Assembly: GCA_010025655.1 (NCBI GenBank) | Contig: RGSV01000029.1 | Coordinates: 1-10,097 of the forward strand | Length of the DNA stretch: 10,097 nucleotides | Reading direction: 5' to 3' | Origin: Acidimicrobiia bacterium | GTDB lineage: Bacteria; Actinomycetota; Acidimicrobiia; Acidimicrobiales; Ilumatobacteraceae | Part shown: piece by piece, positions 1,912 to 3,618 of the stretch | Layout of the letters: the number at the start of each line of letters is the position of its first letter | Position numbering within the stretch: the stretch's first letter is position 1 | The notes under the pieces: generated by a model | Told to the model about the DNA's origin: nothing | The model's input: the letters and a program-made list of their open reading frames with translations, nothing else | The model's database searches: none | Made by a program: the position numbers and the translations under genes

Positions 1912-3618
1912 GTGCCCACTGCGAAGAAGGTCGTAGCACGCGTCACTGAGTTGCGCGAACTGATTGCGTATCACAACGACCGATACTTCGGTGCCGACGA
2001 GCCCGAGATTTCCGACGCTGAGTTCGATGAGCTCGTCGCCGAGTTGCGCCGCCTCGAAACAGCGCATCCCGAACTCGTGGTGCAGAAATCACTGCTCGAT
2101 GCACCCGGAGCACCAAGCACCACGACGTTTGCACCCGTCACTCACCGATTGCCGATGACCAGTCTCGATAACGCGATGGATGCAGATGAGCTGCGGGCGT
2201 GGGGTGAGCGCGTTGCCAAAGGATTGCCGGGTGAGGCTGTCAAGTATGTGTGCGAATTGAAGATCGACGGTCTCGCGCTCAGCATTCGATATGAGGATGG
2301 CGAACTCGTGCTCGGAGCCACGCGCGGTGACGGTAAGACCGGCGAAGACGTCACCGGCAATGTGCGCACCATTGCCGAGGTGCCGGCTCGCCTCAGTGCG
2401 CGTAATGCGCCGCGGGCCCTCGAAGTGCGTGGCGAGGTGTATATGTCGAAGCCCGCCTTTGAGCGTTTTCGCATGCAGAAGATGCAGGAGAACGAGGCGC
2501 GTATTGCGCAAGACAAAAAGCCAATGCCGATTCCGGCGAATCCACGCAACGCCGGAGCCGGAAGCCTGCGTCAGAAAGATCCGGCCGTTACGGCAACCCG
2601 CGAGCTGTCGTTGTGGGCTTATCAGCTGGGTGATGTCGATGGCACACCAGCGTTCACGTCGCATCACGAGACACTCGACTACCTGCGCGAACTTGGCTTT
2701 CCGGTGAACCCGGAAGTACGCATCGTTGATTCACTCGATCGTGTGCTCGAGTTCTGCGCGCACTGGCAGCAGCATCGCAATGACCTGCCCTACATCATCG
2801 ACGGAGTTGTTGTGAAAGTCGATGATCTCGCCCAACGCGAGCGGCTCGGCTTCACCGCAAAAGCACCGCGCTGGGCGGTCGCAGTGAAGTTTCCGCCAGA
2901 AGAACGCACCACACTCTTGCGCGACATCAAAGTGTCGATTGGGCGCACTGGTCGTGCCACACCATTTGCCGAACTCGAACCGGTCGTCGTGGCCGGCAGC
3001 ACGGTGAGTATGGCAACGCTGCACAACCGCGAGCAGGTGCAACTGAAAGACGTACGCCCTGGCGACACTGTCGTCGTGCGTAAGGCGGGTGATGTTGACG
3101 CGTCGCGCCAGCGCCCACTCGAAAAACTGCTCGTCGCACTCGGCATCAAACACCTTGGACCGGCAGCCGCCGAGTCATTGGCGCGTCGATTTGGTTCGCT
3201 AGATGCGATCGTTGCGGCCACGGTCGATGATCTCGCCGCGGTTGATGGCGTGGGTGCGGTCATCGCTGAGTCGGCGCACCGATGGTTTGCCGACAAGCGG
3301 CACAAGTCGATGGTCAACAAACTGCGTAAGGGTGGAGTGCAATTCGACAATGTCGTGGTGGTTGACGCACCACAAACGTTGGCCGGCAAGACGGTCGTCG
3401 TCACCGGCACACTCACGGGCTTTGGGCGCGAAGAGGCACAACGCGCTGTCAAAGACCGTGGTGGCAAGAGCGCCGGCAGCGTGAGTGCCAAGACCTTCGC
3501 GCTCGTCGTTGGTGCCGAACCCGGTGCTGCCAAGGTGAAGAAGGCGGTCGAACTCGGCGTGCCGCAGATCGATGAACAGGGCTTCAAGCGGCTGCTGGAA
3601 ACCGGTGAGTTGCCGTAA
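1912..3618 (+). CDS. ligA: NAD+-dependent DNA ligase LigA, internally deleted (no zinc finger)
   Basis: LigA seals 5'-phosphate/3'-OH nicks using NAD+ in replication and repair. Numbered from the GTG at 1912, the protein has 568 residues; the family usually has about 670-700. Domain Ia (about 9-45, with HNDRYF and [11 protein letters not shown]) binds NMN. The adenylation domain has the nucleotidyl lysine in CELKIDG (K117), EVRGEVYM (171-178), [14 protein letters not shown] (211-224), DGVVVKV (297-303) and WAVAVKFP (321-328). The OB fold follows, to about residue 395. The chain then passes directly from RKAGDV (390-395) to [22 protein letters not shown]. In ordinary LigA about 110-120 residues lie between these points: the four-cysteine zinc finger and the first two HhH motifs. 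Only C114 and C282 remain, and no CxxC exists. HhH motifs 3-4 (about 405-460) and a BRCT domain (about 487-563) are present. An ATG at 1843 would overlap the divergent gene and adds residues absent from the family. Confidence 0.93.

Follow-up and report, generated by a model that had tools for sequence, protein, structure and literature searches.

An In-frame Gap in the Assembled ligA of an Ilumatobacteraceae Draft Genome, Very Probably a Technical Chimera

The ligA Gene and Its Missing Residues

The DNA analyzed here (the window, 10,097 nucleotides) is contig C202 of the draft genome G000, an assembly of 1.52 Mb in 367 contigs that is 78% complete. It includes a ligA gene whose neighborhood is collinear with that of the relative G012; the features of the encoded NAD+-dependent DNA ligase are listed in Table 1. 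The reading frame is open from 1843 and ends with the stop codon at 3616–3618. The start was placed at the GTG at 1912 by alignment with P0001, the best database match of the window LigA, which has 684 residues and carries the segment that is missing here. The codons for RKAGDV extend to 3096 and are followed from 3097 by those for [17 protein letters not shown], with one open frame across the junction. Relative to P0001, residues 396–511 are absent, a gap of exactly 116 residues or 348 bases that is in frame; a first-pass annotation of this DNA had recognized the in-frame loss at 3096/3097 and estimated it at 110–120 residues. The sequence as given truly contains the gap, and the rest of ligA shows no decay. 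Outside the gap, 559 of 567 residues are identical to P0001, and the eight differences are distributed as five in 394 residues on one side and three in 173 on the other. Because of this near identity, P0001 is probably from the same species as the window LigA.

Table 1. Features of the assembled ligA gene in the window
Feature	Position	Strand	Evidence
ligA, NAD+-dependent DNA ligase as assembled, 568 aa	1912..3618	+	ORF; PF01653, PF03120, PF12826, PF00533, PF22745
Nucleotidyltransferase (adenylation) domain PF01653, intact	2122..2901	+	Pfam, E 7e-91
OB fold PF03120, ends early at profile position 63 of 79	2908..3096	+	Pfam, comparison with P0001
Junction, 348 bases absent (116 aa: OB-fold end, C4 zinc finger, first HhH half)	3096..3097	+	Protein alignment, blastn, tblastn
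HhH remainder PF12826 (second half of domain)	3127..3315	+	Pfam
BRCT domain PF00533, intact	3379..3594	+	Pfam, E 2.1e-10

The window protein has the domain order, catalytic domain, and BRCT domain of other bacterial LigA proteins (P0001 and the E. coli enzyme, 2owo) but differs from P0001 in the 116 residues missing from the assembled copy. The N-terminal NAD+ domain was also recognized by Pfam. The OB fold of the assembled protein is incomplete: the PF03120 match covers profile positions 1–63 of 79, compared with 1–78 of 79 in P0001, and about a fifth of the profile has gone with the cut. All four zinc-finger cysteines of P0001 (residues 420, 422, 439, and 444) lie inside the missing segment, so that the C4 zinc finger is absent from a copy whose flanks are those of a LigA possessing one. 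In the alignment with E. coli LigA, the cut starts after residue 383. This position and the early end of the OB-fold match indicate that the cut took the last part of the OB fold together with the zinc finger and the first HhH half. Of these, the OB-fold end is an addition; the first-pass annotation had already listed the other two. The cut therefore misses a neat domain border, starting inside the OB fold.

The Segment in Relatives and a Search for Other Ligases

A LigA match was found in 60 of the 61 genomes searched, the genome of the window being counted among them. In 11 of the 12 genomes of the same genus, the LigA match is split into two pieces flanking the missing segment, so the gap is not a chance result; the twelfth, G010, gave no LigA match. 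Of 73 related loci that were fetched (L003–L075), 70 carry the segment (66 distinct ones, as four duplicate other loci), and the remaining three stop at contig ends. Database searches with the whole protein and with a junction-centered query gave 7999 and 1692 matches in all, and the segment is present in each of the 184 proteins among the matches listed. No carrier of the junction was found among these 184, although a 90% cluster, for example that of P0001 with 118 members, may hide one. Loss of the segment is common to no relative seen, and a lineage-wide loss was rejected because the relatives are intact. No titles on a LigA lacking this segment were noticed in a non-exhaustive search of the literature.

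In P0001 (zinc finger at residues 420–444) and its close relatives, the first two finger cysteines form a CPC motif with one residue between them; the zinc finger of E. coli LigA has two residues at this position. PF03119 scores 21.5 bits on P0001, below its cut-off of 25.8, and annotation may therefore miss the zinc finger in Ilumatobacteraceae relatives.

The PF01653 adenylation domain has a single match in the 78% complete draft, and PF01068 has none. Nothing corresponding to the 116-residue segment was found elsewhere in G000 by a search run without a positive control. A second ligA copy, or the segment at another place in the assembly, was rejected on these results, and no second ligase turned up in this incomplete draft.

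Other Cuts and Joins in the Draft Assembly

The deciding test for an artefact is an assembly control in which proteins of one genome were sought that match another genome in two directly abutting pieces. The sample of G000 comprised the window and 60 further contigs (61 loci with 579,874 bases in total, many of them among the longest of the 367 contigs); that of the same-genus genome G003 comprised 60 stretches (1,117,755 bases), and that of G012 only 20 contigs. With 744 G003 ORFs as queries, five clean internal deletions were found in G000, where the matched portion amounted to 352 kb. The reverse comparison gave none in 723 G000 ORFs (both ORF counts include overlapping and antisense frames), and comparison of G003 with G012 gave none in 166 and none in 156 in the two directions. 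Five against none is a small count, for which a one-sided sign test gives about 0.03. A stricter run (≥70% span; 449 and 433 ORFs) showed four of the five deletions, the 100-nt one being absent, and the LigA and sulfatase cuts were also seen against the second relative, G012. Left out of the count were an apparent 3069-nt deletion at a contig end, in a long protein (L180/L137), frameshift-like rows (five and nine in the two directions), in-gap length differences of 60–93 nt found in both genomes, and length differences of 762 nt (L142/L183) and 64 nt (L211/L086) that have overlapping edges and are not clean cuts.

In addition to the 348 nt of LigA, the deletions comprise 312 nt of a sulfatase gene (L211, G000:C309, 3103–5169), 273 nt or 91 residues of an XerD-type recombinase gene (L116, G000:C1, 12792–13427, minus strand), 260 nt of a CcmF gene (L203, G000:C301, 7274–8519), and 100 nt of a gene for a Rex-type repressor (L134, G000:C19, 3148–3788). 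The names were taken from Pfam and, for XerD, also from the names of database matches; the L134 product is presumably Rex, judging from its pair of domains. The LigA, sulfatase, and XerD cuts are in frame; the Rex cut is out of frame, as is that in CcmF, which is frameshifted. The missing stretch of XerD includes the motif ATGARISE and that of CcmF is tryptophan-rich, and we take both to hold key residues. The five cuts do not look like selected losses. The database protein P0185 (305 residues), which would be from the same species as the assembled XerD, is identical to it at 211 of 212 residues outside the gap and has the 91 missing residues. With P0001 and P0185, a near-identical intact copy is thus known for two of the cut genes.

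Inverted joins are also present in G000. In L132, whose contig contains a perfect inverted repeat of 59 bp, the two parts of an alpha/beta hydrolase gene lie on opposite strands. L146 has a D-Ala-D-Ala ligase gene in two abutting parts on opposite strands, and the contig end in L150 is imperfectly palindromic. The least certain inverted join is that in L121, where an inverted repeat of 94% identity was found. These four cases are a sign of chimeric contigs in G000. A match on both strands between L198 and L102, with its mirror row, was dropped because it involves two ABC-transporter-like paralogues; this pair was the only both-strand match in the reverse comparison. After the broken CcmF gene, the last 93 bases of the L203 contig translate to a sequence most like a Synechococcus phage short tail fibre protein, a weak match (68% over 28 residues, E 9e-4); Pfam and PHROGs gave no match for these 93 bases.

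Origin of the Gap

We consider it very probable that the LigA gap is a technical chimera produced in the library or the assembly and not an evolved zinc-free ligase. An artefact is favored because four more genes of G000 carry similar cuts and the close relatives are intact. The source would be an ordinary full-length ligA. Two stretches of it, 348 bases apart, would have become joined, with little or no sequence shared at the junction, while the library was prepared or amplified or the reads were assembled, and the draft contig would have retained this chimeric form. The LigA of the organism itself is most likely a normal one with a zinc finger; the deletion would be present in no cell and would have been made by some laboratory or software step. 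Both LigA and XerD have intact counterparts that near identity assigns to the same species, and similar unselected joins occur elsewhere in G000, namely four deletions, two of them out of frame, and the inverted joins. The weakly phage-like contig end fused to CcmF, and the single adenylation domain with no PF01068 match in the assembly, also speak for this origin. Against it, the LigA deletion keeps the frame and introduces no stop, as expected of a true domain loss (a random cut has a 1 in 3 chance of being in frame), and with the sulfatase and XerD cuts three of the five are in frame; the five against none of the control is, moreover, a small count.

Three readings had been offered by the first-pass annotation: assembly collapse, the genuine loss of a domain from an essential enzyme, and a recent deletion tolerated through another ligase. 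An assembly error is supported by the results. At the breakpoints of relatives (21 of 29 loci recognized) no long shared repeat is visible, so plain k-mer collapse of a repeat probably does not explain the gap and a chimeric join fits better. According to PMC1855051, strand switching during MDA makes joins over few bases that are mostly inverted: 406 of 475 chimeras were inverted and only 11 of 475 were direct within 10 kb. The joins tallied in G000 are five direct and three or four inverted, with more short direct deletions than in that study. MDA was therefore not adopted as the sole cause, direct joins of <10 kb being rare in that study. Misassemblies from wrongly merged read pairs are documented in PMC5657622. 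Four of the five deletions fall within 260–348 nt; a cause that depends on fragment size, for instance the false merging of read pairs, would fit these sizes and is a possible source of the LigA gap. The chimeras described in PMC1855051 and PMC5657622 resemble the joins of G000 in their clean joins over few bases, in the inverted joins, and in the occurrence of several per assembly. It counts against a chimera that the pattern of joins fits no single known source neatly.

A real and recent deletion in one cell or strain, leaving a dead or crippled ligA, is very improbable. It would place the gene in a dying cell, in a variant that forms a minority within a mixed population, or in a cell rescued by a ligase missing from the draft. 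The deletion is clean, with an open frame and no decay in the rest of the gene, and a second ligase could be missing from a draft that is only 78% complete; however, no PF01068 ligase was found in G000, the near-identical P0001 is full length, and four more conserved genes of G000 would need recent clean deletions of which the compared relatives show none. Still less credible is a functional zinc-free LigA, in which nick sealing by the adenylation domain and the truncated OB fold would be aided by the retained half of HhH and the BRCT domain. The catalytic part, the HhH remnant, and the BRCT domain are all recognized by Pfam, but about a fifth of the OB-fold profile is removed, and none of the 70 relatives spanning the region lacks the segment. 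According to PMC5052709, the lost finger keeps the OB fold and the HhH domain positioned, and according to PMC10504179, the HhH domain, half of which is lost, touches both strands in the minor groove. A LigA protein with such a cut would be expected to be badly impaired. We thus regard it as highly improbable that a living Ilumatobacteraceae strain replicates with a single LigA that has neither a zinc finger nor a complete OB fold and only half of its HhH domain. The closest sequences being full length, no second ligase having been found in the incomplete draft, the OB fold cut, and four genes similarly affected (two of them out of frame), the earlier suggestion of domain loss in an essential enzyme is not supported. 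The first-pass annotation named E. coli LigB, said to lack a zinc finger, as a precedent for zinc-free nick sealing. LigB is a protein of its own; the protein encoded here is clearly a LigA from which one segment is absent.

If the gap were real, a sole replicative ligase missing its zinc finger and half of its clamp on DNA would be at odds with present knowledge of LigA. The technical chimera favored here serves as a warning that a draft assembly can yield a clean in-frame domain loss in an essential gene. An inexpensive check is to screen further conserved genes of the assembly for similar cuts, especially for cuts that break the reading frame.

Positions 4155–6083 of the window encode a PASTA-domain Ser/Thr kinase-like protein. 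Its match to the Pkinase profile begins only at profile position 54, which points to a short or divergent N-terminal kinase lobe.
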